64,000 nucleotides of DNA from Hellea sp. (GCA_028224375.1 JAOIVW010000009.1:1-64000); one strand, 5' to 3'; shown: positions 48,122 through 63,999, counted from the first letter of the stretch. Program-made: numbers and translations. Notes: generated from the sequence alone by a model not told the origin.

Positions 48122-51100
48122 CTAGAGCGACAGAGTTACATGCGCGCCCCATCCATAGGCGCGAGATGCTTGGGCGATTGTAACCGTGTCGGCGTTTTGG
48201 AGGTCCTGCAGGCTGAGGCTCGGCGCGGTTGTTTCATATTCCGCAATGAGAGTGCCGCCTGAGAGTAGCTGCACGCGATAGCGCTCTTCTTCCTCCCCCA
48301 AAGGCACATCTAATCCCGCCCAGCTATCCCCGCCTATGCGCGTGCGGCGTGTCCAACTTATCTGCGTTTGGCCGTCATTTTCGGTGATTTTGACGTGAAC
48401 GGGGCTTAGCGGGCGCAGATGGGTGGCTTGGTAGAGGTGGTGTAGCGTATCGCCCTCGCGGCCAGCGGCTATGGCCGTTATCGGGACGGTCTCGCCTATT
48501 GCGCTCTCGGCTAAGAGCAAGTCGTCCCACCCCGCGCCTAGCCAGACGAGTCTTGCGCCTGACGACAAGGTCGCGGGTATATCTGCGTCAGAGCCGTCTT
48601 GCCCGCGCAGTAATTTTGATAACCGATAAGTTGAGGGCGCGATGAGTTCAGCTTCTGCAGCTTGGAACACTTCCCACCCTGTGGGCGTCTCAAGTGCGAA
48701 CTGATTTCCGCCGTCATATATCGCTTTATCCGATAGCGAGGAGAGCGGCGCATTGGGCAGGAAAACATCTATCACATTGGCGTAGTCCCAACGCCCTATT
48801 GGAGCTGCGGGCAAGTCCATGAGCAAGGCGCCGATGCGCGCGGGCGAGCCTAAGGTCACGCTATTTGACGGCCCTGAAATTTCAGTAACCGCAAATGGGT
48901 CAAGCCCTGCGCCGACAAGCGGGCCGTCATATTCGCCTGGAATATTAAGCGCGAAAACCACAGGCTTAGCCGCCCATGTGGCGGGCCGTGTTTCCTCTGG
49001 CGAGGCCCCGCGATTTGGCAGCGCGTCTCTGTCTCCTGTCAATCGCGCCTGCACGCGTTGCGTGGTCAAACCTTCCAACGTTTCGACCTGCCACACATCC
49101 TCATTTTCGGGTAAGGAGATGAGATCGCCAACCTCTAGATTTAGACTCGCGCCAGAGAGCTGGAAACTTAGCGTGCAGTCACTTTCAAGTCGCCGCGTCA
49201 ACACCCGGTCTGCGGTTAATTTGGCAAAGCTGCGGTCCATCACTATCGCTGCATTTACATCTAAAATACGCACCGTTTCCGCGAGCTTATCACGGGCGGC
49301 TGCGAGGCCTAATTGATAGTCATTTCCGGCGTCGATAAAATGCAAACGCGCATCTTTCAACCTGTCTTCAGGACTGTCTTTTATCTCTTCAATTGAAACG
49401 GATAAATCCCCGACAATATCCTCAGTGGTCAAAGCCAAATGCGCCTCTGTCCCGTCGCTTAAAAATCGTAGACCCTGCGCCGTGTCCATCACGGAAAAAC
49501 CGTAAACCAAAGAGAGCGGCGTGAGGGCGGCGCGGCCGGTCATCGGGCGGTCAATATGATAGCCTTGGACGAGGCCCGTGACCTTAGAGACATCCACGGT
49601 TTTGAGCCCGCTTTGCGCACAGATATCTTCAACCACATCTGCCAGTGGAACGAGCCCCATTCGCCCCGTCAGCCAATGTCCTCTTTGCCAATTTTCGCCA
49701 TCCGACCAGACGCTATCTCGTGCAGGGAAATCGGGAAAAGGCCGCGCATCCCAAGCCCAAAGATTGATCATATCCAGGTCAATCATTTTGCCGTTATTAA
49801 GCAATGAGGATGGGTTGTTATTCGAGCTGTCTGACCAGTAATCTATAAAGGCCTCCAGATAACGCCGCTGGATAAGGTCATCACGTGAACCTTCTGAAAA
49901 ATATGGATAATTTGACTGTCCTGATTTCGCGTCATAGAAAACATTAGGTTGGTTCGCGCCCTTATCTATAGCGGGACACCCAATCTCCATCAGCCATATC
50001 GGCTTGCTTTCTGGCGTCCAATTTGTGGGCGCATTTACCTCTACACTGCCGCGCCGATTATAATGCGGCTGGCTCCACCAATTGCGCAAATCTTTATAGC
50101 GAAAGACCCAAGCTTTATTCACCTCGCCATCTGTAATGGGGCTACGGATTTGGGCATCTCTATCGGCCTCAGACGCATAGAAATAATCATAGCCCTCCCC
50201 GCCTTCCATGCCGCTTTTAAGATAGCCTAAATCATAAATATTTTCTGCTAATTGAGCATCAAAATCTATGTTCCCTTCCCGCCAATCGGAGAGCGGAAAA
50301 TAGGCATCAATCCCGACGGCGTCTATTGCATTTGAACTCCATAATAGATCGAGATGGAAACTCACATCTTCGCTTCCATCTTGCGGATGATGGCCGAAAT
50401 ATTCCGTCCAATCCGCCGCATAAGTGAGCGCGGTTTGCGGCCCGACCACGGCCTTAACATCTGCCGCTAATTGAACAAGTTTTTGAACGGCCGGATAGCT
50501 ATTAGTCGCGCCGCGTAATGTCGTGAGTTCGACCATCTCAGAGCCAATGGCGAAGCGGTCAACGCCGCCTGAAACTTTCGCAAGTTTTGCGTAATGCAAA
50601 ATGAAACGGCGATAGGAAAACTCATCCGCGCCTGTATAGTTCGGCACTCCATTTTCAATACCAAAATCAGAGCCCTGCGCAGTGCCAAAGAAGCTATTTA
50701 ATTGCGTAATAATTCCGCCCGTATTCTCAGCGGATTGTGGATAACAGGTGATACGCCCGCGCCATGGAAAGGCCTCTTGCTCACTCCCGCCATAAGGGTC
50801 AGGCAATCCATTTCCGCTCGGAATATCCATCAAAATAAACGGGTAAAGCGTAACCTGATATCCGCGAGATTTGAGGCTCGCTATGGCTTGCAGAATAGAC
50901 TCGTCTGATGGCGTGCCGCCATAATTCGGACGCCCGTCTTCGCTCTGGCTAACGAGATAAGCGCTCCCTCGTGTCACGCCGCTCACCCGCCATGTTACCA
51001 CTGGCGTGATGCGGGTTTTAGTCTCCACGCCAGGCTTTATCTCGCAATCACCGCAGCGCAAATCCGTCCCGAACCACGCCGTGATAATGGAGACATTTTT

Positions 51101-51886
51101 AACATTGGGAAGCTGGCTTTCGAGCTGATCTAAGGCCAGTTCAATATCAGCCTGCCCCGACAGATTATTCATATTGATAGGCCGCGCGGATGTCGGGGTG
51201 GGCGTCTCCTCAACTACCTGCGTCGCATAAGCAAATTCACCGCTAGCGGGGAGCAAGTTCACGCCTCGCACCATATTTTCCAGGCGCGGCGTATCATTAA
51301 GCGCAAGCGGCACGCGAATGACTTCCGCATTAATTTGCGGCAAGCGCGCGCCATATTCATCCAGCGGAAAGTCTTCAAAGACGAGGTAAGCTGTCCCGCG
51401 AAAACTTGGCACATCTGAACCTTCAATTGCGTTGATAATCGGGTCAGGCAGTTGATCTTCAGTCCCTTTATAGACCCGCAGGTCCAAAGCTGCGCTCTGA
51501 AGCGGCGCGCCATTGGCCCATAAGCGGTCCACGCCCAGGATTTCGCCTTCGCAAAGCCCAATAGCAAAACTGATACTATAGCTGTAATTACGCTGGGTCG
51601 GCCCGCCGCCTTTTCCGCTTTGCACAGACTCTTCGCTAACCGTTTCGCGGATGCGTGAGGCCCAAATCACCTGCCCCGCCAGCCTGATTCGCCCATAAAC
51701 CCGCGCCATAGGGGCCCCGTCGCGTGATGTTTGCAGATGAAAGCTGTCTAAACGCGGGCCTTCAAAGACTCGAGTGTCAAAAGCATTGGAAATCGCGCTA
51801 TTGGCATAGGCGAGCGCGGCATTAGTGCCAATTTGCACGGCGCTATTACCCAAAAACTGCGCTCCCGCGACAAGAAGTGTGCTCAT
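48122..51886 (-). CDS. GTA host-specificity/tail fibre-like protein (RcGTA gp15 type)
   Basis: 1254 aa with TIM-barrel region (FHLDLLWSSNAIDAVGIDAYFPLSDWREG..., NTGGIITQLNSFFG); C-terminal RLSKLLRGQDGSDA; downstream of gp14 as in RcGTA. Confidence 0.9.
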   Translation of the reverse strand: MSTLLVAGAQFLGNSAVQIGTNAALAYANSAISNAFDTRVFEGPRLDSFHLQTSRDGAPMARVYGRIRLAGQVIWASRIRETVSEESVQSGKGGGPTQRNYSYSISFAIGLCEGEILGVDRLWANGAPLQSAALDLRVYKGTEDQLPDPIINAIEGSDVPSFRGTAYLVFEDFPLDEYGARLPQINAEVIRVPLALNDTPRLENMVRGVNLLPASGEFAYATQVVEETPTPTSARPINMNNLSGQADIELALDQLESQLPNVKNVSIITAWFGTDLRCGDCEIKPGVETKTRITPVVTWRVSGVTRGSAYLVSQSEDGRPNYGGTPSDESILQAIASLKSRGYQVTLYPFILMDIPSGNGLPDPYGGSEQEAFPWRGRITCYPQSAENTGGIITQLNSFFGTAQGSDFGIENGVPNYTGADEFSYRRFILHYAKLAKVSGGVDRFAIGSEMVELTTLRGATNSYPAVQKLVQLAADVKAVVGPQTALTYAADWTEYFGHHPQDGSEDVSFHLDLLWSSNAIDAVGIDAYFPLSDWREGNIDFDAQLAENIYDLGYLKSGMEGGEGYDYFYASEADRDAQIRSPITDGEVNKAWVFRYKDLRNWWSQPHYNRRGSVEVNAPTNWTPESKPIWLMEIGCPAIDKGANQPNVFYDAKSGQSNYPYFSEGSRDDLIQRRYLEAFIDYWSDSSNNNPSSLLNNGKMIDLDMINLWAWDARPFPDFPARDSVWSDGENWQRGHWLTGRMGLVPLADVVEDICAQSGLKTVDVSKVTGLVQGYHIDRPMTGRAALTPLSLVYGFSVMDTAQGLRFLSDGTEAHLALTTEDIVGDLSVSIEEIKDSPEDRLKDARLHFIDAGNDYQLGLAAARDKLAETVRILDVNAAIVMDRSFAKLTADRVLTRRLESDCTLSFQLSGASLNLEVGDLISLPENEDVWQVETLEGLTTQRVQARLTGDRDALPNRGASPEETRPATWAAKPVVFALNIPGEYDGPLVGAGLDPFAVTEISGPSNSVTLGSPARIGALLMDLPAAPIGRWDYANVIDVFLPNAPLSSLSDKAIYDGGNQFALETPTGWEVFQAAEAELIAPSTYRLSKLLRGQDGSDADIPATLSSGARLVWLGAGWDDLLLAESAIGETVPITAIAAGREGDTLHHLYQATHLRPLSPVHVKITENDGQTQISWTRRTRIGGDSWAGLDVPLGEEEERYRVQLLSGGTLIAEYETTAPSLSLQDLQNADTVTIAQASRAYGWGAHVTLSL

Positions 51887-52347
51887 TTAGGTCTCCCAAA
51901 AGAGGCAGGGGTGGCTGGAAAGGAGAAAGAAAAGGCATGGCGGCGCGTCCAATAGGGCACGAGGTAACTCTCCACCACGGCGCGGCCCCAATAGGCGTGA
52001 ATGATGCGGTCAGGCGCGCTGAGGATGGCGATATGTTTACACGGCACGCTGGGCGCCATGCGAAAGAGCAGCACATCACCGGGCTGCGCGGCTTCATCGG
52101 GTACAGGTGTCAGGCAGTTTCGCGCCGCTTCCAATAAAGTTTCCTGCCCCAAGCTTTCGGCCCAATCGGGCGTGTAAGGCGGAACGGCCATCGGTTCTTC
52201 CCCGTACAGCTCTCGCCAGATGCCGCGAATAAGGCCAAGGCAGTCACAGCCCGCCCCTTTGACACTGGCTTGATGTTGGTAAGGCGTGTTGATCCAGTCC
52301 TTTGCTAAAGAGACGATACGCTCACGCGGGATATGTAGCTGGTTCAT
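51883..52347 (-). CDS. GTA NlpC/P60 peptidase (gp14 type)
   Basis: IVSLAKDWINTPYQHQASVKGAGCDCLGLIRGIWRELYGEEP; HIAILSAPDRIIHAYWGRAVVES. Confidence 0.9.
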   Translation of the reverse strand: MNQLHIPRERIVSLAKDWINTPYQHQASVKGAGCDCLGLIRGIWRELYGEEPMAVPPYTPDWAESLGQETLLEAARNCLTPVPDEAAQPGDVLLFRMAPSVPCKHIAILSAPDRIIHAYWGRAVVESYLVPYWTRRHAFSFSFPATPASFGRPK

Positions 52348-53003
52348 GAATAGCGCGAGCTCCCATCTCGGCGCTCGCCAATTTGCGGCGCGGCTTGGAG
52401 CGCGTCATCGCCAAGCAAAAAGGGAAAGCCGCGATAGTTGATGACATTGTCAAATTGATCGCGGCAGGCAGCAAGCGTGTTGGGGCATGTCGTGCCTTCG
52501 GGAAAGCCGGCGAGGTCTAAGCCGCAGCGGGCATCGCCAAATTCAGCATCGCAAATTTTCGAAAAAACGCGTCCGACAGAGCGGCCCAAAAGAACCGACT
52601 CGCCTACCCATTCAGCCTCAAAGGCCTCGCCCTTCTGGCGGATGGTTCCAAGCCGTCCTTTAGCAATTGCGGCACGCTGAGAGGTGTCCGCCCAATTGAC
52701 ACGGAAGCTTTCAATCACAGCCTGCTCATAGAGCCCAGCTTTGATATCCTCCGCTGAAATTCTATCGCTGATGAGCGCGCCTTGCACGCTGCCATTATCC
52801 GTTGAAAAACCAAGGCGGCGATCCATCTCGCTGGGCGTCAACCCAGAAGAAGCTTCGTAATTAATTCCATCTATTTGCAAATCGCGGTCATGATCTGTGA
52901 AGCCAAAAACCTGTGCGTCTTGCCGCGTTATTTTCCACAGCCATGCGAGCGTTGTCACGCGGTTTTCTAAATGGCTTTGCAATTCAGGCGAAAGATTACG
53001 CAT
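52344..53003 (-). CDS. GTA gp13-type protein (DUF2163)
   Basis: MRNLSPELQSHLENRVTTLAWLWKITRQDAQVFGFTDHDRDLQIDGINYEASSGLTPSEM. Confidence 0.9.
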   Translation of the reverse strand: MRNLSPELQSHLENRVTTLAWLWKITRQDAQVFGFTDHDRDLQIDGINYEASSGLTPSEMDRRLGFSTDNGSVQGALISDRISAEDIKAGLYEQAVIESFRVNWADTSQRAAIAKGRLGTIRQKGEAFEAEWVGESVLLGRSVGRVFSKICDAEFGDARCGLDLAGFPEGTTCPNTLAACRDQFDNVINYRGFPFLLGDDALQAAPQIGERRDGSSRYS

Positions 53004-53634
53004 GATCCAACACCTCAATCAGAGGAATATTTATCACCTGCCCCGCACCAAAGGCTTCGAGTGAAACGTCGAGCTGATCTATATCAAAACGCACAGGCAC
53101 ATCAAATTCAAAGCCGCAGCTTATGACGCTATCCTGCGGCGGCGGAACAGAAAATTCAACCTCGCCAGAAAGCTCATCAACGGTGAACTCAGAGGCCAAA
53201 ATTTCAACGCCGTTCAAGGCGCATTTCACCGTGCCAGAAACAGGTTTCGTAATCGGCCTTTCATAGGCTCCTGCCGCATCGACATAGGATTTTATAAGCT
53301 TGAATGTTGTCGCCGTCCCATCACCAGTTCCAATGATTTGGTCGGTTGGCGCAGGTACATCATCAGGCTTACAGCTCTTAAAGTCTAAGGGGTCTCGAAA
53401 ACGAAAACTATGCAATTGACCAAATCGCGCTTCAAAAAAGGCAATTAAATCATGGAGTTTACCTAATGTCTTTACACCTGCGCCCGCATTATAACGGCGG
53501 CGAGAGTGGGCGTGCGGGGAATTACGGTGCTCCATGCCGCTGGCTAAGGCGGTGATGTCGGTGCGCCGCGAAGGCCCGCCGCTTGCGCCAAAGGCTAGGG
53601 AGACAGGGAAGCGCACATTGTGAAAATCAGGCAT
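52996..53634 (-). CDS. GTA gp12-type protein (DUF2460)
   Basis: MPDFHNVRFPVSLAFGASGGPSRRTDITALASGMEHRNSPHAHSRRRYNAGAG...KLHDLIAFFEARFGQLHSFRFRDPLDFKS. Confidence 0.9.
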   Translation of the reverse strand: MPDFHNVRFPVSLAFGASGGPSRRTDITALASGMEHRNSPHAHSRRRYNAGAGVKTLGKLHDLIAFFEARFGQLHSFRFRDPLDFKSCKPDDVPAPTDQIIGTGDGTATTFKLIKSYVDAAGAYERPITKPVSGTVKCALNGVEILASEFTVDELSGEVEFSVPPPQDSVISCGFEFDVPVRFDIDQLDVSLEAFGAGQVINIPLIEVLDHA

Positions 53635-53644
53635 AGATATCTTT

Positions 53645-54052
53645 TTAAATATAGCGCTGGCCGTCCGCGACAGCGCGGGCAACAGCACTTGAAATTTGGC
53701 CTTGGGATTTTGTAAAACTTTGCGCATCCGTCAGGCCAGACACGCTCATATTAACAGTGACGGCCGGCTTGGAATTTGCCCCCGTAATTACTTTTCCCAA
53801 ACCGCCTATCGCTTGTTGTAAGGGCCCGGTGAACAGCTCCGTGATAGCAAGCCGCGCAAGGTCACGCGCCACGGATTCGGCAAGGCTGCTAAAGGAGAGC
53901 TCACCCGATTTAGCCGCGCGCTCTAAGGCTAATGATATTCGCTCGCCCGCAAATTCAAAGGCTTTGGCAACATCATCGGCGGCGACGATAGCGGGGCCAT
54001 TGGCGAAGTCTTGAAGCGCTTGCGCGGCGTCATCTGAACTGTTCATAATCAT
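53645..54052 (-). CDS. GTA gp11-type tail tape measure-like protein, short
   Basis: SLAESVARDLARLAITELFTGPLQQAIGGL; position between gp12 and gp10 genes. Confidence 0.75.
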   Translation of the reverse strand: MIMNSSDDAAQALQDFANGPAIVAADDVAKAFEFAGERISLALERAAKSGELSFSSLAESVARDLARLAITELFTGPLQQAIGGLGKVITGANSKPAVTVNMSVSGLTDAQSFTKSQGQISSAVARAVADGQRYI

Positions 54053-54239
54053 CTTCCAATTTAATTGGATCTGCTTTGCGCATGGCGAGAGGCGCGGAAG
54101 CTTGCGTCAGGGCAAACCAATCTATCAGGCTCATATTCCAAAACTCGGAAGGCGATAAACCGAGCTGCATTACCGCAATTTTCAGCCAGGCTTCAAAGGG
54201 CCAATCGGGTCTATCCGTCATGTGAAAAGGCCTCTTCAA
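54030..54239 (-). CDS. GTA tail assembly chaperone-like protein
   Basis: DRPDWPFEAWLKIAVMQLGLSPSEFWNMSLIDWFALTQ; overlaps both neighbours. Confidence 0.75.
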   Translation of the reverse strand: MKRPFHMTDRPDWPFEAWLKIAVMQLGLSPSEFWNMSLIDWFALTQASAPLAMRKADPIKLEDDYEQFR

Positions 54240-54519
54240 AGAGCTTACAGATGAGCGGCAGAGCCTGCCTCACTTCATCCTCCGAGGCGGTTGCTGCTGG
54301 CCTGGTGAGCGCGCCCTCGGAGGGGAGACAAGGCTGCATCACACAGGCCAGCAGCACACGTCCGTCAGCCGCAGTTAATTCGCGCAAGCGAGCCGAAAGC
54401 TCATGCGGGCCGCGGACTGACAGACGTGATTGGATATCGGCCAGAGCGCCCATAGTCAGGCGAAGGCCATAAGGTTTGCCGTTAATGAGGACGCGCTGAT
54501 CGCCGCGCTGAAATGCCAT
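54211..54519 (-). CDS. GTA gp10-type protein
   Basis: GDQRVLINGKPYGLRLTMGALADIQSRLSVRGPHELSARLREL. Confidence 0.8.
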   Translation of the reverse strand: MAFQRGDQRVLINGKPYGLRLTMGALADIQSRLSVRGPHELSARLRELTAADGRVLLACVMQPCLPSEGALTRPAATASEDEVRQALPLICKLFEEAFSHDG

Positions 54520-54929
54520 TATATCGCGCTAAAGCTCGGCGCGCCTGCCGACATCAAGGTCAACTCATAGCTCGCCTCGCCTTGATAGGTGCCCGCATAA
54601 GATAAAGACGTCAGCAGAAACGGGCCTTCAACAATACCGAAATCAGGAATGATAAAACGATAAGTCTCAACCGATTGCTCGAAGAAGGCTGTCCGCGCCA
54701 AGGCGTCCGACTCCGTATCGCGAAACACCCCCGCCCCGCTTATCTCGGCGGATTTTACCCCTGCCCCTGGCAAAAGCTCTTTCCAGCCTTGGGCGGAGTC
54801 CGTGTTGGTAATATCCACCGCTTGGGCGTTGAGGCGAAAGGCTTTGCTGCGCAGTCCTGCTAAGGTCACAAATTCATCAGCGCTGTTTTTGATTTTGACG
54901 AGCATATCTCGTCCGTTTTGGGCCGCCAT
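54519..54929 (-). CDS. GTA major tail protein (gp9 type)
   Basis: MAAQNGRDMLVKIKNSADEFVTLAGLRSKAFRLNAQAVDITNTDSAQGWKELLPGAGVKSAEISGAGVF. Confidence 0.9.
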   Translation of the reverse strand: MAAQNGRDMLVKIKNSADEFVTLAGLRSKAFRLNAQAVDITNTDSAQGWKELLPGAGVKSAEISGAGVFRDTESDALARTAFFEQSVETYRFIIPDFGIVEGPFLLTSLSYAGTYQGEASYELTLMSAGAPSFSAI

Positions 54930-55354
54930 TAGAGCGCCTCCTCAGTATCGGTTGTCAGGGAAAATCGAATAAGCCCGTGCAGGGTCAATCCGTCTGGCGC
55001 GCGGAAAATATCTGTATAAGTGACTTGGGCGCGCACAAGGGTCACAGCCGTCAGCGTCATTGCGCCGTTTTCCAGCGCCTCTGTTACGGCTTTTAAAACC
55101 TCCATAACCTCAGCGCGTCCGCCATAGCGTGACCAAATATGAAGCGTGAGCGTATGGGTATTAATCACCGCCCCGTCCCCGCTCCTATCTTCGCTGCGCA
55201 TCGGGCCGTAAGTTAGATAAGGAAAGACCGGATCTTCGGGCGGGCTGTCATAGAGGCGCGGCGGCTCACCAAGCACGGCTTGAACCCCGCTATGAGCCGC
55301 TAAAAGGCTATGCAAGGCTTTGGAGATTTCAATGGCCGCGTGAATATCGCTCAT
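54929..55354 (-). CDS. GTA gp8-type protein (DUF3168)
   Basis: ALHSLLAAHSGVQAVLGEPPRLYDSPPEDPVFPYLTYG...HTLTLHIWSRYGGRAEVMEVLKAV. Confidence 0.9.
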   Translation of the reverse strand: MSDIHAAIEISKALHSLLAAHSGVQAVLGEPPRLYDSPPEDPVFPYLTYGPMRSEDRSGDGAVINTHTLTLHIWSRYGGRAEVMEVLKAVTEALENGAMTLTAVTLVRAQVTYTDIFRAPDGLTLHGLIRFSLTTDTEEAL

Positions 55355-55668
55355 TGCTGTTCCTCCTCACACATCAGGTGCAAACGCTCGCCGCGCGTAT
55401 CGGGATCAGACGCAGCAATGACGCGCAAAAGACGCGACCCCCACATGAGCCGCGCCCGCTCAGGAAAATCGGTGCGATAGCGTATCGTCACGCGGTAGGT
55501 CTGGGTAATTGCGAGGCGTCCGTTTTCCCGCTTTTCAGTATAGTTTTTAGGCTCAACAGCCGCCCAGAGCAGGCGTTTGAACTGCCACGAGATACTGACC
55601 CCGCCTTGCGCGTCCGGCGTCTCGACAGGCTCGTATAGTCCCAGACGCGAGCGAAGCTGCCCAATCAT
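55351..55668 (-). CDS. GTA head-tail adaptor (gp7 type)
   Basis: MIGQLRSRLGLYEPVETPDAQGGVSISWQFKRLLWAAVEP...YRVTIRYRTDFPERARLMW. Confidence 0.9.
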   Translation of the reverse strand: MIGQLRSRLGLYEPVETPDAQGGVSISWQFKRLLWAAVEPKNYTEKRENGRLAITQTYRVTIRYRTDFPERARLMWGSRLLRVIAASDPDTRGERLHLMCEEEQQ

Positions 55669-56228
55669 AGCCGCACCGTGCGGTAAGGCATGAGCAGCGC
55701 ATCGACAAGCATAGGCACAGGCCGCTTAAGCGCCGCGTCGCGATGCTCATAATGCTGCGCCAATAAGAGCAGCACGGCTTGGCGAAGCTGCATCGGCACG
55801 TCTTCGGGCGCGGCCCCATAGCCTGCATCAAATTCCGCAATAATCGCCGCAGGGTCAGCGGCATAATCTGAAAACAAATCCCGCCTGCGCACTTCAATAC
55901 TGACGGGCTGAGCGCGGGTATTGATATAGACCTCGCTTTTAGGAATTTCAGTCTCCACTCCCGCGCCGTCAATCAGAGCGAGTTTATGGACGAATTTGAC
56001 GGGGCTATGATTAATATGAAATCGCCCCGTACAGGTCTTGGCTGAGCTATAAGCACGGCGGCGCGTGATCAGCGATGTTCGCGCGATGAATTCAACCCGC
56101 TCCCGCGCAGTTTTTATGAGGTCTGTAATCAGCGCGTCTTCATGGTCATGATCAATGCGCAGAAACTCTTTAGCGGCGGCGAGCGCGATCGGCTCAATCG
56201 GCGACGCGGTTACGTCTGTGATACTCAT
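55665..56228 (-). CDS. GTA head-tail connector (gp6 type)
   Basis: MSITDVTASPIEPIALAAAKEFLRIDHDHEDALITDLIKTARERVEFIARTSLI. Confidence 0.9.
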   Translation of the reverse strand: MSITDVTASPIEPIALAAAKEFLRIDHDHEDALITDLIKTARERVEFIARTSLITRRRAYSSAKTCTGRFHINHSPVKFVHKLALIDGAGVETEIPKSEVYINTRAQPVSIEVRRRDLFSDYAADPAAIIAEFDAGYGAAPEDVPMQLRQAVLLLLAQHYEHRDAALKRPVPMLVDALLMPYRTVRL

Positions 56229-56287
56229 TTTAAGGTCCTTTCCCTCCAATAAAAAAGGCCGCCCTGATGGCGACCTTGCTCTCTAAT

Positions 56288-56428
56288 ATCCTCCCCCGTT
56301 TACGGGGGAGGTGCGCCGCGAATGCGGGGCGGAGGGGGGAGCGACAAGAAACTGGGTTCAGTTCTGCTTTGCTCCCCCCATCCCCCGCCATATGGCGGGT
56401 ACTTCCCCCGCTTGCGGGGGAAGGGATT
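56288..56428. repeat. Inverted pair of REP-like GC palindromes (BIME-like) in the GTA operon
   Basis: tcctcccccgtttacgggggaggtgcgccgc...ggaggggggag and its diverged reverse complement ctccccccatcccccgccatatggcgggtacttcccccgcttgcgggggaaggga. Confidence 0.85.
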
Positions 56429-57642
56429 TACGAAACGCTCGTCTTGAGCAGTTTAATCGCGTTGAAATCCTGCATACCGCCGCCGACGCGTTTGGTGGTG
56501 TAGAACAGCACGTAGGGCTTGGCGGAATAAGGATCGCGCAGCACGCGCACGCCTTGGCGATCGACAATCAGGTAGCCTCGGCGGAAATCGCCAAAGCCCA
56601 TCACCGCGCCTTCACTGGCCAGATCAGGCATGTCTTCGACTTCGGTGACGCCGTAGCCTAGCAGGGTCGAGGGCTGCCCGGCTTCGGCGGCGGGTTGCCA
56701 AATGTAATTCCCATCCGCGTCTTTGAACTTACGAATTTCGCTCAGCGTGCGGCGGTTCATGATAAAGGCGCTGCCCGCGCGGTACCGCGTTTCAGGCGCG
56801 TAAATCAGGTTCATTATTGCGTCAATCGGCGCGTCGGCATCAAAGCCGCCCGCCGTACCCGTGGCGACATAGCCCAGGTTACCCCAGCTATGAGCGCTAT
56901 CTGCGACTTGGGTATAATCCAGAAGGCCGCGCGGTTTATTCACGCCGTCCCCCGCCGCAAAAGCCGCGGTTTCTTGTGCGGCGAAAACATCGCGCACTTC
57001 ATCAGCCAGCCATTGATCAACATCAGCCACGCCGTCATCGAGCAAAGTCTGGGTTGCGGCTGGCATGGCGTAAAGCTCGCCAGTGGGAAATTCGAGCAGT
57101 TCTAATTGCGGCGCATCGGTTTCAATCCGCGCCTCTGTTTCGCCGGCCCAGCCTGAGGCCGCGCTGCCCGCAGAAACAGGCTTTTTGAAATAACCCGCTC
57201 CGACACGGCGCACGGTGGCTAACCGGCGAAAGGGTGAGGCGTCGAGTAGAGCGCGGTCAATGCGGCTCTCTGTTTCTGCCGGGGCGACATAGCCGCCTTC
57301 GGCATCGACGGAAGAGGATAATGATTTGCCTTCGAGAGAGGCCAGCTCTGAGCCGTCCCCTGTGCGAATATAAGAGGACCAGGCGGATTTGGCTTCGGGA
57401 TTGACCGCCTCGCCGCCAATAGCAGGGCGACTGCCAAGAATGGCGAGGTTTTCAATTTGCTTGGATTGGGTATCTAGCGCGGCATTGATGCGGTCAACTT
57501 TATCGGTGAGCAATCCGTCACCTTGCTTTTGTTCTAGCGCATTCAGACGCTCATCATTGGCGTCTTTAAAGGCTTGGAAGGTGGAGGCGAAATCAAGCTG
57601 CGCCGCTTTCATCTCTTTGGTTTCAGTCTGTAATTCACTCAT
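56428..57642 (-). CDS. GTA HK97-fold major capsid protein (gp5 type)
   Basis: AWSSYIRTGD...SSVDAEGGYVAPAETESRIDRALLDASPFRRLATVRRVGAGYFKKPV...; capsid C-terminal fold motifs. Confidence 0.95.
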   Translation of the reverse strand: MSELQTETKEMKAAQLDFASTFQAFKDANDERLNALEQKQGDGLLTDKVDRINAALDTQSKQIENLAILGSRPAIGGEAVNPEAKSAWSSYIRTGDGSELASLEGKSLSSSVDAEGGYVAPAETESRIDRALLDASPFRRLATVRRVGAGYFKKPVSAGSAASGWAGETEARIETDAPQLELLEFPTGELYAMPAATQTLLDDGVADVDQWLADEVRDVFAAQETAAFAAGDGVNKPRGLLDYTQVADSAHSWGNLGYVATGTAGGFDADAPIDAIMNLIYAPETRYRAGSAFIMNRRTLSEIRKFKDADGNYIWQPAAEAGQPSTLLGYGVTEVEDMPDLASEGAVMGFGDFRRGYLIVDRQGVRVLRDPYSAKPYVLFYTTKRVGGGMQDFNAIKLLKTSVS

Positions 57643-58118
57643 GCGAGTTTCCTTTTTTCATGTTCAATGTCTAGGTTATCAATTTGGGTAATCCGCGCGC
57701 TGCGCAGCATCGGGAAGGCGACAACGGAGACCTCCCACAAATCCAGTTCAAGTAAGTTGCGCCCGCCGCCATTTCGGCGAGTGGCGCGTTTGGCGCGGTA
57801 TCCAATGGATAGGCCAGATAATGCGCCTTCGCGGATAAGACGCGCCGTGCGGTTAGTTTTGGTATTTCCGCCAATCAGACGCCCCGACACGAATAGCCCT
57901 GTGCGGTCTTCGAAGAGGCGATCCCAGACGCCAATGGGCTCGGTGGTTTCATGGCCAAAGAGCATGGGAATACGTTCAGATGTTTCCCTTGGCATTGACA
58001 GCAAGCTGGCCGCAAAAGCGCCGCGCTGCACAATATCGCCTGACATATCCACTTGCCCAAACAGGCTCGCATAGCCGGAGATGCGTAGCTCGGAGGCGCC
58101 ATATTCTAAGGCCCTCAT
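57639..58118 (-). CDS. GTA prohead protease (gp4 type)
   Basis: ISGYASLFGQVDMSGDIVQRGAFAASL...PMLFGHETTEPIGVWD...GLSIGYRAKRATRR. Confidence 0.9.
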   Translation of the reverse strand: MRALEYGASELRISGYASLFGQVDMSGDIVQRGAFAASLLSMPRETSERIPMLFGHETTEPIGVWDRLFEDRTGLFVSGRLIGGNTKTNRTARLIREGALSGLSIGYRAKRATRRNGGGRNLLELDLWEVSVVAFPMLRSARITQIDNLDIEHEKRKLA

Positions 58119-58351
58119 CTATCTAACTTGCGTTCTATGCGGGTTAGACTTTGTGTCATCACCGTGGTTTGACCTTCGACCCGCGCGAGGCGCTGCGCGA
58201 CTCCGGGCGCCATCGCCATTTGCGCCTCTAACGTTTTTATCCTTGCCTCGGCCGCGCCGGCCCAGATTAATGCGCTGGCTGTTTGTAACATCACAGACAG
58301 CATCAAGCCGTAGGTAACGGTGCGGTCAAAGCTGAGTAATTTCTCGCTCAT
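58115..58351 (-). CDS. Small GTA-cluster protein between portal and protease
   Basis: 78 aa, TM helix plus coiled coil, overlaps both neighbours by 4 bp. Confidence 0.75.
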   Translation of the reverse strand: MSEKLLSFDRTVTYGLMLSVMLQTASALIWAGAAEARIKTLEAQMAMAPGVAQRLARVEGQTTVMTQSLTRIERKLDR

Positions 58352-59541
58352 GTGGGGCCTCCATTTTGCTGGGCTAGCCCCGCCATATCGCGGCGCTCTT
58401 CATCGGTGAGAAAACTCGCCTCGCCCAATCGTTTCCATAAACGTCCTCGCTCTTCGGAAAGCGCCGGCACAGAATCCAAATCCGCCGTGATACGTAAGTC
58501 CTCGCCGAAGAAAGGTTGCAACCAGTCTTCCATCCCGCGCGCGGTTTTGCGCACGAGCGGGATGATTGTCTGCCGCCAAAAGGCTTGGTTGGCCTCTTTG
58601 TAATTAGCGTAAGTATTATCGCCCGGAATACCGAGCAGCATGGGCGGCACGCCAAAGGCCAGCGCAATTTCTCGCGCGGCTTCTCGGCGGGCTTCGATGA
58701 AATCCATATCGGACGGCGTCAGGCTCATGGCTTTCCAATCCAGCCCGCCTTCCAGCACCATAGGCCGCCCCGCATGACGCGCGCCGCTATGTTGACCTTC
58801 CAACTCTAATTTAAGGCGGTCAAAGGCATCGTCTGATAATCGCTCTGCCCCCTCACCGCCTTTGTAAATCAAAGCCCCGCTAGGCCGCGCAGAATTATCG
58901 AGCAGCGCCTTGGCCCAGCGCCCGCCTTCATTATGCACATCCACAGCTTGGGCGGCGGCCTCAAGAGGCGAAAAACCGTAAGAGTCAGAGGCTGGATGAA
59001 AGAGCCGCATATGATGCACAGCAGAGCGGCCCGAAGCGGCATCGCGGCGAAAGCGGCGTTTATAACCGCCAGCTTCATAGTCATAACCGCTGGGCCATCC
59101 ATCTCGTCCCGTGACGACGGAAACACGGTCGGGGCGTAGCGCGTAAAGCGCAGACGGCACGCCATCGACTAAGGCCGCCTCCATATAGGCATTACCGCCG
59201 ACTTGCAGATAGCCGTAAAAGCTTTCCATCACTTCGGCGGCTGAGGTCATAGGATTGCCGCGGGACAAGAACGTCTCCGCAGGGTCGCCCGCTTCGCAAT
59301 TATTACCACGGCGAACACATAGAGGCACGGAGGCCGCGGCCTCTGAAATCAGGCGCACACAGCGATAGACAATGGCGTTTTTCTGATACCCCTCTCGCAC
59401 CAAGCCGCCGTAATCACGCGGCGTCCAAGAGGCGCGAGAGCCAAGCGACAAAGCTATTAGAGGTGGCCGCGCAGATTTGCTCTCAGGCACGGGCGCAGGT
59501 TTTGAAGCAAGACCAAAGGCCCCGCGAAACAGGTTTTTCAT
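58348..59541 (-). CDS. GTA portal protein (gp3 type)
   Basis: GYQKNAIVYRCVRLISEAAASVPLCV...FHPASDSYGFSPLEAAAQAVDVHNEGGRWAKALLDNSARPSG...GDNTYANYKEANQAFWRQTIIPL. Confidence 0.95.
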   Translation of the reverse strand: MKNLFRGAFGLASKPAPVPESKSARPPLIALSLGSRASWTPRDYGGLVREGYQKNAIVYRCVRLISEAAASVPLCVRRGNNCEAGDPAETFLSRGNPMTSAAEVMESFYGYLQVGGNAYMEAALVDGVPSALYALRPDRVSVVTGRDGWPSGYDYEAGGYKRRFRRDAASGRSAVHHMRLFHPASDSYGFSPLEAAAQAVDVHNEGGRWAKALLDNSARPSGALIYKGGEGAERLSDDAFDRLKLELEGQHSGARHAGRPMVLEGGLDWKAMSLTPSDMDFIEARREAAREIALAFGVPPMLLGIPGDNTYANYKEANQAFWRQTIIPLVRKTARGMEDWLQPFFGEDLRITADLDSVPALSEERGRLWKRLGEASFLTDEERRDMAGLAQQNGGPT

Positions 59542-59663
59542 ATAAAAATCTTAAAATGGACAGGAGCGCAAAAGCTCAGAGTTTCAACAACACCCCGTTA
59601 TAGCACAGCCCTGCCTAGCCAAGGAAACATCTCTGAATTTTTATGATAAGGGGCTGAAATATA

Positions 59664-59681
59664 ATAGGAATAATTTCCTAT
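59664..59681. promoter_or_regulatory. Candidate operator between portal and araC-type genes
   Basis: ATAGGAA-taat-TTCCTAT, perfect 7-bp inverted repeat in a 205-bp divergent intergenic region. Confidence 0.45.
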
Positions 59682-59746
59682 ATATGAGGATTGAGTTTTA
59701 TTAGATTAAAATTTCCCATACCTAAAAAAGCTGATAAGCATTCTTA

Positions 59747-60526
59747 ATGACAAGTTTATCAGATATTGTCGGTGAAAAAATTGTGATCGTGCCTGCGGCG
59801 CCAGATGGTCGATTGCGCCGCAGTGACGTCAAGATGTTTGAGGTTTTGTTTCAACACTTACTAGACGTGTATTTTTACGTTAAAGATAATGATGGCAACT
59901 GGATAAGTTGTAATGCATGCTGTCTGGAAATCCTAAATTTTTCGCAAGTGTCCGACGTGATTGGCAAGAATGAGGATGACTTTTTTCCGTATAAAATTGC
60001 TCTCGAAATTCGGCGGGAAGATCGAAACATTCTCGCATATGGTCAAAGCGTCTTAAACCGGATTGAAATCATTCCTAACGCTTTTGGCGATCTCATGTGG
60101 GTTCAAACGAATAAGCTTCCGATTTACGATATGAATGGGAATGTCATAGGTATTATAGGCGTCACCCGACCCATTTCCAATATGGAGGATTTGCCGCAAG
60201 AGTTTGAGCTTTTCAGCGAAACAGTCGCGTTTATTCGGGCTAATTTGGCGAATACAATCAAAGTGACAGACTTGGCCAATGTCATGAAATTATCAGAAAA
60301 TCAGTTCCGGCGTAAATTTAAGCAAGAGTTCGGAGTCACGCCCCAACAATTTGTTTTGCGCGCCCGTCTACAGGCCGCAGGGCATTTGCTGCGCAGCGGC
60401 ACTGAGCCTATCGCTATTATTGCCTTAGAGAGCGGTTTTTCCGATCAGAGCTATTTTACAAGACAATTTAAGCAGTTTTTTGGCGAAACGCCTTTGCAAT
60501 ATCGTCGGCGCTGGATCAATAATTGA
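59747..60526 (+). CDS. PAS-domain AraC-family transcriptional regulator
   Basis: PAS: LLDVYFYVKDNDGNWISCNACCLEILNF...DFFPYKIALEIRREDRNIL; AraC HTH: TIKVTDLANVMKLSENQFRRKFKQEFGVTPQQFVLRARLQAAGHLLR...ESGFSDQSYFTRQFKQFFGETPLQYRR. Confidence 0.9.
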   Translation: MTSLSDIVGEKIVIVPAAPDGRLRRSDVKMFEVLFQHLLDVYFYVKDNDGNWISCNACCLEILNFSQVSDVIGKNEDDFFPYKIALEIRREDRNILAYGQSVLNRIEIIPNAFGDLMWVQTNKLPIYDMNGNVIGIIGVTRPISNMEDLPQEFELFSETVAFIRANLANTIKVTDLANVMKLSENQFRRKFKQEFGVTPQQFVLRARLQAAGHLLRSGTEPIAIIALESGFSDQSYFTRQFKQFFGETPLQYRRRWINN

Positions 60527-60668
60527 TAAGCTACATGGTGGAATAGTTATAAAATTAACCCCATTCCTTCTATCTCATGAGGTCGATACGTGTAGTTTGG
60601 TGTAACTTGCCCCCAAGCAACTAGAAATGCCCCAGAAAACTCAAACAAGTCTATTGGGCTTGTCAAAG

Positions 60669-60708
60669 CCTCATTGCAATCATATCCCACACTATGATTG
60701 TAATGAGG
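60669..60708. terminator. Long hairpin between convergent genes, likely terminator
   Basis: CCTCATTGCAATCATA-tcccacac-TATGATTGTAATGAGG, 15/16 paired, followed by tgtttt. Confidence 0.6.
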
Positions 60709-60805
60709 TGTTTTGATAAACGGGTTAGGGAGTCCTAAATCTTAATCTAAAATACATTGAAAAGCGCCCGCGTCACGCCGCCCTGAAGCGTCTTAAACTT
60801 GACCC

Positions 60806-61204
60806 CTACACCGCAAGTGCAATTGAGGGTTTGGTATATGTCCACTCTTTAGGTTCAACTTTAGCCTGTCTACCCTGCGCAGGGAGCGGCGTGTCCGACA
60901 TGGTCCATTTCATAATCATAGTGAGGATTTCGCTTTTATTGGCGAGACTATCCAGGTTCTTGCGCAAATCTTTGATACTTGTGTCAAAGTGAACGGAGCT
61001 TGTTTGTCTGTCTATCTTGGACTTATTTATTGTCAGCCAATCAACCGCAAAGCTATCCGTGAGCATTATGTTGGGCGCAAATTTATCCCGCAAATCATGC
61101 GCTGCCTGTTTAAAGGTCGACAGCTCGTCCCGTCGTTCCATCTTTTTTGACGCCACCATCACAGCCAATAATGTGATGACGTCAGTCCAATTTTGAGCGC
61201 GCAT
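60806..61204 (-). CDS. Hypothetical protein
   Basis: ATG at 61204 (MRAQNWTDVITLLAVMVASKKMERRDELSTF...) preceded by GGGAG; helical, no known domain. Confidence 0.5.
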   Translation of the reverse strand: MRAQNWTDVITLLAVMVASKKMERRDELSTFKQAAHDLRDKFAPNIMLTDSFAVDWLTINKSKIDRQTSSVHFDTSIKDLRKNLDSLANKSEILTMIMKWTMSDTPLPAQGRQAKVEPKEWTYTKPSIALAV

Positions 61205-61399
61205 AATAATCTCCCATATGTGACCGCGCGGCTTGCTCGGACATCTTACTCCCATAAGGCCAGCCCAAACGCACAACGCGCATATTCTCTATGGAGGATA
61301 CCACCTGAACGGAGTCTACAGCCAAAGACCCATCCCGTTAACGTCTATTCATTATAAATACCGATCAAAAAACCGATATGCGCTTGCGCGCCGCCTTAT

Positions 61400-61825
61400 T
61401 TAAGCGGCTGAAAACAAGCTTTGTGTCGCTGAGCGGTTGCCCAGCAATGACCTGGCAAGGCCGTAATTCTTTTTTAAGGCTTTGCGCATGGTCTCATCCC
61501 CTATCATAGAGGCAATTGTTATCGCGCCGCGGTAAGCTTCGACGGCATGCTCTAGAGCATCTGTATCATGATTGGCGCGGCCAAGCTTTAGCAGCGTGTC
61601 CCCTAAGGATTGCTGCACTTCAGCATTTTCGCGGGGCATATGATCAATGGAATAAAGCTCTTGAGCGGAGCGCAAAGCATTGACGGCCTGAATGAGAGGC
61701 TGCGTGTCACCGGTCTGCGAGGCGAGAGTCACCATGTGACCCGCCAATTCACGATTTAACTTCGCCAATTCATTATTTGTTTTTTTTAAATTACGTTCCA
61801 AATCAAGCTTCTTCATTTCTAACAC
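61400..61825 (-). CDS. Hypothetical helical/TPR-like protein
   Basis: N-terminal coiled coil, then TPR-like repeats (LIQAVNALRSAQELYS..., DALEHAVEAYRGAITIASM). Confidence 0.55.
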   Translation of the reverse strand: MLEMKKLDLERNLKKTNNELAKLNRELAGHMVTLASQTGDTQPLIQAVNALRSAQELYSIDHMPRENAEVQQSLGDTLLKLGRANHDTDALEHAVEAYRGAITIASMIGDETMRKALKKNYGLARSLLGNRSATQSLFSAA

Positions 61826-61882
61826 AGTTGCGCTCCCACACGATTACGTTCGTAATTTTGGCAGTTTACAGTTAATGTGAAG

Positions 61883-62395
61883 TTAAATTGCAGACTCTAA
61901 ACGCGCAAAAATGCGCTCTGCAGCTTGAGCGAAATCTGCCCGTGTGCGCACGCGAATAAGCGGCAAGCCCGACGCCTCAAAGATACCGTCTTTCAAGGCA
62001 TCCGCCTCCATCGCAGCTTTATTATGACTGCTCCCGTCCAGCTCTATCGCCGCAATGGGCGCGCCATATTTATCGGTTATAAGATAGTCGACATGGCGGG
62101 ATTTAACGCGGCCGCGCAAAGCCCATTTCGCCTGCCCTTTAATATTGCGCTTAACGCGTAGAATATCCTCGAGCCGGACTTTACCGTGAAGGTGATAGTC
62201 TTGCGGGAGGGCCCGGCGTAATGCGGCAAAGAACTCACGTTCGGATGTGTTGACGAATAAAGACTCAACACGTTCAAAACAGGCATAGACCCGCGCGTCA
62301 GAGGCTTGCGTTTTGGGCGGTGTGAACCCTTTGGACCGAAAGGATAAGAGGCAAAGCCCGCTTATGACCACGATGATGAAAACCATTTCTAACAT
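61883..62395 (-). CDS. DUF2726 domain protein with N-terminal TM helix
   Basis: VDYLITDKYGAPIAAIELDGSSHNKAAMEADALKDGIFEASGLPLIRVRTRADF. Confidence 0.8.
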   Translation of the reverse strand: MLEMVFIIVVISGLCLLSFRSKGFTPPKTQASDARVYACFERVESLFVNTSEREFFAALRRALPQDYHLHGKVRLEDILRVKRNIKGQAKWALRGRVKSRHVDYLITDKYGAPIAAIELDGSSHNKAAMEADALKDGIFEASGLPLIRVRTRADFAQAAERIFARLESAI

Positions 62396-62423
62396 GCCCC
62401 ATAATAGAACATATCATGAACAA

Positions 62424-63788
62424 TTACAATTGCCTTATACGCGGCGTAGCCCGAGATTTCAGCATTAATTCGGTCACGGCCCAGACTAGGGCGTCCGCTC
62501 TGTCCGGGCTATGGTTTGAAGCTTTGGTGCCCATCGCCGCAAGCTCATCTTCGAGCGGCATAAAGCGGCCGCAATGCGCCACCCGGCCTTGCTCATAAAG
62601 CAGCGCCACAGGTTCAGCGCGTATGGCCTTGCTGCGACTGGCATAGACATTGCGCACGGGCATGGACGGGTCGAGCATGTTTAAAACAGAGCTGACCAGT
62701 TCCCCGCCCTGATTAGTTTCTGCTACGATGTAATCTGCCTCCCAGCCTCTCGCGAGGGACAGCGCCGCTTTGGCCCATCCTTCGGGCGAGCGGCCTTGGA
62801 CGGTGCCGTCATGCAGGATGAAGGCTTTGGCCTTGCGCCCCTCCCCGCGCAGCCCTGCAACGATTAGCCCGCAGGCATCAGAATTTGCGCCCGAGGTCAC
62901 AGGCGGATCAATGGCGAGAATAATCCGCTCGCAATCGGGCCGCTCATCGGTGTAAGCCGCCTCCAACATGGAGCGTGTCCAAAGCGCGCCGTCAAGGTCT
63001 TCAATATATTCACCGCTGAGTTCCTGCCGCCCCAGCCGCGTGCCGCCATAGGCTTCCTCCATCGCCGAGAGAAATGTCGGCGCGAGATTATCTTCATTAT
63101 CAGCCGTGCTGCCGCGCGAGATTAAAAGCCCTTTGGCAGCTAATAATTTTTTAAGCGCAGGCACAGGCTTGGGTGTTGTTGTCAACACAAGCTGCGGATT
63201 GGTGCCAAGGCGCAGCGCTAAACGTAGATTGGAAAGCGTCTGTTCAGGATAGGTCCAAGCGCAGAACTCATCCGCCCAAGCGGCGTCAAATTGCGGCCCG
63301 CGCAAACCGTCAGGATCTTCTGCCGTAAACACATGCCCCACCGCGCCGTTTGGCCACTTTAATTGTCGGCGGCTAGGAGAAAAATGCGGTCGCTCTGATT
63401 GATAGCCAATATTCCTAAGCCCGCTCTCGCCTTCAATCATGACCTCACGCGCATCATGAAAGGTCGGGGCGACGAGTGCGATGCGGGATTTGCCATGAAC
63501 CGTCACTTGCTCGCGTATCCATTCCGCGCCTGTGCGGGTTTTCCCTGAGCCTCGTCCGCCCAATAATAACCACATCAGCCAATCATCGCTGGCCGGGATT
63601 TGATGGGGCCGCGCGTAAATCTCCCAAAGCTTCTTAACATCCGCAAGCTTAGTGCTCGGTGTCAGGCGCTTTAGATAGTCTTCCGGCGTTTGGCCCCGCC
63701 GCTCCAATTCCTCTCGGAGATAGGAGACGGATAAGCTCTCGCTTAAGACGGTCCCGGTCTTCGGGCATAAGCGGGGGGAGGTCTTCAT
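62424..63788 (-). CDS. GTA terminase large subunit (gp2 type); start uncertain
   Basis: WLMWLLLGGRGSGKTRTGAEWIREQV Walker A; AWADEFCAWTYPEQTLSNLRLALRLGTNPQLVLTTTPKP; C-terminal nuclease. Confidence 0.95.
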   Translation of the reverse strand: MKTSPRLCPKTGTVLSESLSVSYLREELERRGQTPEDYLKRLTPSTKLADVKKLWEIYARPHQIPASDDWLMWLLLGGRGSGKTRTGAEWIREQVTVHGKSRIALVAPTFHDAREVMIEGESGLRNIGYQSERPHFSPSRRQLKWPNGAVGHVFTAEDPDGLRGPQFDAAWADEFCAWTYPEQTLSNLRLALRLGTNPQLVLTTTPKPVPALKKLLAAKGLLISRGSTADNEDNLAPTFLSAMEEAYGGTRLGRQELSGEYIEDLDGALWTRSMLEAAYTDERPDCERIILAIDPPVTSGANSDACGLIVAGLRGEGRKAKAFILHDGTVQGRSPEGWAKAALSLARGWEADYIVAETNQGGELVSSVLNMLDPSMPVRNVYASRSKAIRAEPVALLYEQGRVAHCGRFMPLEDELAAMGTKASNHSPDRADALVWAVTELMLKSRATPRIRQL

Positions 63789-63999
63789 AGCGGGAGTATT
63801 TCTGTGATGTTTGGGTCTCTTCTTGGCGTTGATTATGAAGTTCCAAAGCATGTATGGCTTTTAGCTGTAGGATAAAGGCGCGCGCACATTGCTCCATATT
63901 GGACAGTTCAAGTTCGGCTTCAGTGTCAGCCAATCTGCCTGTCTCAGTCATCAGCCGCGCGGCGGCATGAGTCAGCACGTCAGGGGAAAGGAATGTCAT
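63649..63999 (-). CDS. Probable GTA small terminase-like protein (gp1 type)
   Basis: Immediately upstream of and overlapping TerL; helical, LKRELIRLL; may extend beyond the window. Confidence 0.55.
   Translation of the reverse strand: MTFLSPDVLTHAAARLMTETGRLADTEAELELSNMEQCARAFILQLKAIHALELHNQRQEETQTSQKYSRYEDLPPLMPEDRDRLKRELIRLLSPRGIGAAGPNAGRLSKAPDTEH

Follow-up and report, generated by a model that had tools for sequence, protein, structure and literature searches.

A conserved DUF2726-TPR141 gene pair, later insertions and a promoter-like element before portal in the terL-portal gap of a GTA cluster in Hellea and its relatives

In the RcGTA of Rhodobacter capsulatus, the genes for the large terminase (terL) and the portal protein are adjacent. 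In a genome of Hellea sp. they are not, and this raises the question of what the intervening DNA is, how it came to be there and whether it separates the expression of the terminase from that of the capsid and tail genes. The DNA analysed, referred to here as the window, is a stretch of 64,000 nt (GCA_028224375.1 JAOIVW010000009.1:1-64000), and the gap shown is positions 59,542 to 62,423. The explanation favoured in this study, with a probability of roughly 70%, is that the gap combines a conserved gene pair, the boundary between two co-regulated transcription units and cargo. The locus bears on the wider question of why GTAs are maintained at all: in the clade described here, marine bacteria related to Caulobacter, a non-phage gene has been built in between the packaging and the particle genes clade-wide.

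ORF listing and profile searches gave a terL-portal gap of 2,882 bp. A preliminary description of the locus had reported about 2.9 kb with a plus-strand PAS-AraC gene and three minus-strand genes, and the ORFs and Pfam matches confirm this; the minus-strand genes are X156, TPR141 and DUF2726 (Table 1). That description also treated 62424-63999 as one gp1/TerL unit. TerL is present there, but a separate gp1-like ORF overlaps it, so that the region contains two ORFs rather than a single one. The true start of TerL is probably further inside its ORF, and that of X156 is probably near 61204. The contig (G000:C69, 106,864 bp) runs on past the window end, where gafZ and then gafY lie directly upstream of gp1, and these two genes are likely to be the GTA regulators. 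Among named organisms, its nearest relatives are Hellea MAGs and H. balneolensis DSM 19091. By its genes the cluster is RcGTA-like, in that TerL, portal, protease, capsid and gp6-gp15 are colinear and homologous across Caulobacterales. Both it and RcGTA have terL and portal-to-gp15 in the same order, whereas the adjacency of terL and portal is replaced by the gap in the window genome.

Table 1. Features of the terL-portal gap and its surroundings in the window genome
Feature	Position	Strand	Basis
gp1-like ORF, 116 aa, first GTA gene	63649..63999	-	ORF; homologues in relatives precede TerL
Large terminase TerL	62424..63851	-	Pfam Terminase_6N/6C, E 4e-28/3e-20
DUF2726 gene	61883..62395	-	PF10881, E 4e-25
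TPR141, TPR-like, 141 aa	61400..61825	-	Synteny; predicted structure; omega
X156, orphan ORF, 156 aa	60806..61276	-	Match of 60-68% in L076/L077
Stem-loop, 17-bp stem, terminator-like on + strand, between PAS-AraC and X156	60668..60709		dG -30 kcal/mol, z -6.0
PAS_4 + AraC-type regulator gene (PAS_4 + AraC HTH)	59747..60526	+	Pfam
Portal-upstream conserved region	59598..59698	-	79% identity with G304
Putative portal promoter GAGATGTTTCC-N20-TATAAC	59597..59633	-	Element search upstream of portal
Portal protein	58348..59541	-	PF04860, E 7e-80; TIGR01537
Other GTA head/tail genes, gp3-like to gp15	48122..58351	-	ORFs; colinear homologues in relatives
gafZ (DUF6456)	L115 1043-1783, beyond window end		PF20057, E 5e-28
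gafY (Bac_DnaA_C; DnaA-domain IV HTH)	L115 1777-2178, beyond window end		PF08299, E 4e-14

The locus was compared in about 60 relatives. The search for portal covered 299 genomes of the order, and that for TerL covered 137 genomes of the family, 110 of which have terL. Adjacency of terL and portal, at distances of 24-775 bp, is retained within the family by genera g2, g3, g5, g7, g8 and g13. The two genes are apart in genera g1, g4, g9, g11, g12, g14 and g55, always with TPR141 and often with DUF2726 between them. Genus g10 has a gap of 2.9-3.9 kb filled by unrelated genes. The order terL-DUF2726-TPR141-portal is fixed in at least six genera of a Hellea/Robiginitomaculum/Algimonas/Litorimonas clade, with terL, DUF2726 and TPR141 co-oriented and spaced by 28-57 bp, and TPR141 is found in every intact GTA of that clade. 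When a tree of TerL, portal, capsid and protease was built, all 32 TPR141-bearing GTAs fell into one clade (32 of 48 tips, UFBoot 100, branch 0.27), which is most simply explained if TPR141 was gained once. Profile searches found strong TPR141 matches in 53 of the 137 family genomes, in 8 genera and with one copy each, and only weak generic TPR matches in other families of the order. Strong DUF2726 matches were found in 32 of the 137; judged by its distribution, DUF2726 was lost several or many times in GTA-bearing lineages of the clade and so is not essential.

The preliminary description had offered two readings of the block, a lineage-specific insertion or a functional module, and had proposed synteny in relatives as the way to decide. 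Both readings hold, each for different genes. DUF2726 and TPR141 are an ancestral conserved module fixed between terL and portal across the clade, whereas X156 and PAS-AraC are lineage-specific insertions, and PAS-AraC is not conserved at GTA loci. By the comparison with relatives, the gap is a composite of three layers and not one module.

The DUF2726 protein scores 88.6 bits against PF10881 (cut-off 24.7) and begins with a helix of the membrane-anchor type. An alignment of 27 sequences has invariant E52, K72, R74, E76, D77, D103, E118 and D120, of which E52, D103, E118 and D120 are candidate catalytic residues. Its AF2 model (pLDDT 92) has PD-(D/E)XK nucleases as best fold matches in the PDB, including VRR_NUC and an archaeal Holliday junction resolvase, at E>0.1, which is not significant. 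The PF10881 match places it with the DUF2726, DUF559 and MTES_1575 families of PD-(D/E)XK nuclease-like proteins in Pfam, and the invariant acidic and basic residues and the fold matches would fit a PD-(D/E)XK nuclease-like protein that may have nuclease activity. It differs from those families in its fused N-terminal membrane helix and its tie to a GTA locus. TPR141 is predicted to be all-helical, with five helices (AF2, pLDDT 85), and its fold matches are TPR and designed helical repeats at E>=0.01. Against the Pfam TPR profiles it gave only matches below cut-off, to TPR_8 and TPR-S, and the family has an invariant stretch A-Y-R-x-A-I-T-x-A-S. The model is consistent with a small TPR-like adaptor. 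Neither protein has a match in PADLOC or NCBIfam, and a defence role for the gap proteins was dropped because PADLOC gave no match.

If the pair belonged to the particle, it should be asked what happens to it when the GTA is lost. In genus g15, which is represented mostly by MAGs and in which the genome-wide portal search covered one genome (G282), terL and gafZ were found in 0 of 10 genomes, TPR141 in 9 of 10 and an adjoining DUF2726 in 4 of 10. G318 has the order PBP gene, CxxCxxCC gene, DUF2726, TPR141. These PBP and CxxCxxCC genes also sit just upstream of gp1 or terL in g11, g14, g55 and g3, so that the G318 locus is a GTA site from which the GTA genes on either side are gone. A similar arrangement is seen in G078, where the PBP and CxxCxxCC genes are followed by TPR141 and then dnaJ, and portal-gp15 and terL are gone. 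The type strain H. balneolensis DSM 19091 (G153; L075/L126) has lost portal to gp14 and keeps gafZ, terL, DUF2726, TPR141, gp15 and dnaJ; the space of the lost genes is filled by betaine-transporter-like and other genes. In G024, TPR141 is intact and the structural GTA genes are fragmentary. The profile search did not find TPR141 in the GTA-less Hellea MAGs G272, G302 and G305.

Under a codon model, the omega of TPR141 is 0.040 in the GTA-less g15 compared with 0.056-0.099 in GTA-bearing groups, which indicates that constraint on this gene is undiminished without the GTA. The corresponding values for DUF2726 are 0.098 in g15 and 0.096-0.127 in GTA-bearing groups. For comparison, omega is 0.068-0.088 for capsid and portal, 0.068-0.127 for capsid, portal and TerL together, and 0.127 for X156 (n=3). 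Because purifying selection on TPR141 persists after GTA loss, TPR141 probably does a job for the cell that is independent of the particle.

These results bear on the idea that the pair is a dedicated part of the GTA, acting for instance in headful cutting or particle assembly, and that it lingers in GTA-less genomes because it decays slowly. The position of the pair in the terL unit of the clade's intact GTAs, co-oriented and closely spaced, is what such components would have. Additionally, a gene of another nuclease family, the Vsr-like DUF559, occupies the terL-portal gap on the same strand in G208 (L071) and on the opposite strand in the Caulobacter-like genomes L163-L167, where the gap has no DUF2726 or TPR141. 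These genomes carry only 2-4 DUF559 genes each, and since DUF559 genes fill this slot in them, a small nuclease-like gene beside terL has arisen more than once. However, TerL retains its own nuclease domain, and slow decay fits poorly with an omega in g15 that is no weaker than in GTA-bearing groups after terL and gafZ were lost throughout the genus, or with the retention of TPR141 in G078, G024 and G153 despite a lost or broken GTA. The dedicated-component reading is thus considered unlikely. It is doubtful, and a longer shot again, that TPR141, with or without DUF2726, has a cell-side GTA function, such as handling incoming GTA DNA or protecting the cell from GTA-linked lysis or damage. Producers would then express it alongside the packaging genes, non-producing relatives that still encounter particles would retain it, and the GTA would be split into a 'DNA handling' and a 'particle' unit whose promoters match.

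The remaining genes of the gap have a different history from the pair. Extra DNA of more than 450 bp beyond DUF2726 and TPR141 was found at the terL-portal junction in 9 of 30 clade loci compared with 2 of 265 at all other GTA junctions, so that insertions are biased to this junction. The cargo there includes a transposase-like ORF, cytochrome c peroxidase-like, NYN-domain-like and DUF262-like genes and relatives of X156, all recognised by eye except those of X156. X156 itself was found in two Hellea relatives (60-68%), and a remote relative, an ORF with 30% identity to X156, lies in the terL-portal gap of G328 (L093). The bias, which extends to transposase and metabolic genes, would fit a gap that collects DNA neutrally between two ancient halves of the GTA, with none of its four genes of any consequence. 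For X156 and PAS-AraC such neutrality is possible. For TPR141 and DUF2726 it is contradicted by omega values of about 0.04-0.13 over a large divergence and by an order fixed in at least six genera, and as an account of the whole gap it is very hard to credit.

PAS-AraC had been described as the block's own regulator, and on that reading its PAS domain would sense a signal and the protein would then drive portal-gp15 apart from the terminase. The gene encodes a complete PAS_4 + AraC protein and is divergent from portal over a 205-bp intergenic region with a palindrome. However, it occurs at no other GTA locus examined and, at E<=1e-40, in none of the 298 other genomes of the order sample; its two orthologues (73-75%) adjoin unrelated genes at non-GTA loci, sugar-transporter-like in G328 and thiamine-synthesis-like in G329. 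The 102 bp upstream of portal are 79% identical to those of G304, which has other cargo and no PAS-AraC, and both the promoter-like element and the palindrome (ATAGGAA-TAAT-TTCCTAT, at 59650-59690) in this region are present in G304. The palindrome was for that reason rejected as an AraC operator, and PAS-AraC, solitary here among GTA loci, was rejected as a GTA regulator in the main reading. With gafY and gafZ already next to gp1, the claim of an own regulator is not supported, and such a role for PAS-AraC is unlikely to the point of being nearly dismissed. PAS-AraC is seen as a recent insertion and a bystander. The gene is AT-rich (GC 0.38-0.45). Arms of 14 nt that are 93% complementary flank it (59701-59714 and 60737-60750) and may be element ends or chance. 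Each orthologue is followed by a similar ORF of 128-130 aa (L091 6194-6586, L092 5539-5925) that is missing in the window. The stem-loop next to PAS-AraC was considered as a repeated element and rejected, as the window holds no other copy.

If PAS-AraC does not control the portal genes, the DNA upstream of portal may still do so. A -35/-10-like element of the pattern [AT]TCC-N17..21-(TATA-like), in short ATCC-N17..21-TATA, is enriched upstream of portal (27 of 35 loci; shuffle mean 4.1, max 10) and of gp1 (12 of 19; shuffle mean 1.5, max 6), although in both cases the shuffle ignores the shared ancestry of the upstream regions. It is at background level upstream of TPR141, DUF2726, gp3-like, protease, capsid, gp6, gp9, gp12 and dnaJ, the last three being small sets. 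A strict form occurs upstream of portal in 18 of 35 loci compared with 0.15 by shuffling, and upstream of none of seven other genes. The portal element is absent before portal in 7 of 7 GTAs outside the clade, and within the 35 loci the relaxed form is missing in 7. Alignment of the portal-upstream regions gave GAGATxxATCC-N18-GTAGAT in g9, GAGAATGATCC-N20-TATAAA in g4 and an identical layout in g1. Upstream of gp1 the -10 is poorly conserved, including in the window's own genome, where GAGATNNNTCC was not found before gp1 and the gp1 form is AATCC. Enrichment of an inverted repeat between -35 and -10, the arrangement of the GafZ site in C. crescentus, is only slight (mean arm 4.2 vs 3.5). The Caulobacter sigma-73 promoter (TTGNNN-N9..14-GCTANAWC) was also tried; since only the window and G304 match it before portal, the clade-wide element replaced it. 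In the window genome, a 12-mer AAACTCAATCCT is present upstream of both gp1 (L115 1002-1041, contig 64001-64040) and portal (window 59690-59710).

The distribution of the element suggests two transcription units with promoters of one class. Since a second promoter would serve portal-gp15, the GTA probably consists of the units gp1-terL-DUF2726-TPR141 and portal-gp15. This bears on the earlier proposal that the block uncouples the terminase from capsid and tail expression. Separate promoters for the two sets of genes are plausible given the clade-specific portal element, but because the same kind of element precedes gp1, co-regulation is more likely than uncoupling.

The system closest to this arrangement is the CcGTA of C. 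crescentus, in which gtaT-gtaQ-gtaS-gtaP is the gene order and a terminator, terGTA, lies in the terL-portal slot and is read through with GafZ (PMC11150451). Since gtaQ-gtaS and the terminator hold this slot in Caulobacter, the terL-portal split itself is already known. Both clusters have RcGTA-like genes and gafY/gafZ, and in both the interval from the large terminase to portal carries non-core genes and a regulatory feature, which is putative in the window genome. In the CcGTA promoter, a GafZ palindrome separates the -35 AATCAT from the -10 TATCTTT (PMC11150451); the -35 of the clade element is similar, whereas its palindrome shows only slight enrichment. For CcGTA a single promoter (PgtaT) with antitermination is described (PMC11150451), in contrast to the Hellea-type clade with its promoter-like element before portal, and gafYZ adjoin gp1 in the window genome.

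The Caulobacter case suggests an alternative, in which a single transcript is made by GafZ antitermination from the gp1 promoter through the gap to gp15 and the portal element is no promoter. Transcription in CcGTA does start at PgtaT and pass terGTA, the terminator immediately behind gtaT, and gtaQ and gtaS then precede gtaP (PMC11150451); gafZ, found in 102 of the 137 family genomes, is present in the clade's GTA-bearing genomes. Against it stand the specific, conserved -35/-10-like element that precedes portal in this clade alone and, in the window genome, the opposing gene and the strong stem-loop that read-through would have to pass. This alternative is held to be improbable while keeping an appreciable chance of being right.

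The composite explanation can then be set out as a sequence of events. In the clade ancestor, two host-type genes, for a membrane-anchored nuclease-like DUF2726 protein and the TPR141 adaptor, would have become fixed between terL and portal, after which a second GTA-type promoter would have served portal-gp15. Both unit promoters, with their common -35/-10 architecture, would probably be turned on jointly by GafY/GafZ, and TPR141 would serve the cell independently of the particle. The DNA from TPR141 (or terL) to the portal promoter would tolerate insertions, and in the window genome X156 and PAS-AraC would have landed there and left the portal promoter intact.

For a non-phage gene that runs against the other genes of its GTA cluster there is a precedent in CCNA_02873, an antisense cargo gene of the CcGTA cluster with a GTA-independent function, zeocin resistance (PMC9632790), though PAS-AraC differs from it in position and protein. 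The literature searched yielded nothing on DUF2726 in GTAs, and to the extent of that literature the pairing of DUF2726 with TPR141, the persistence of this pair once the GTA is lost and the occurrence of like promoter-like elements before gp1 and portal are new. Because selection on TPR141 outlasts the particle, comparison within the clade offers a clean way to tell genes of the GTA locus that serve the cell from those that serve the particle, and from the matching elements two co-regulated transcription units are predicted.

One further observation concerns the small gp3-like gene downstream of portal (window 58118-58351; L062 2827-3039), which is 87% identical to the copy in G252 of genus g4. 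Its neighbours portal and protease are 61-69% identical, and the gp3-like copies of most other relatives about 45-65%. Recombination between GTA loci is a possible source of this high identity.
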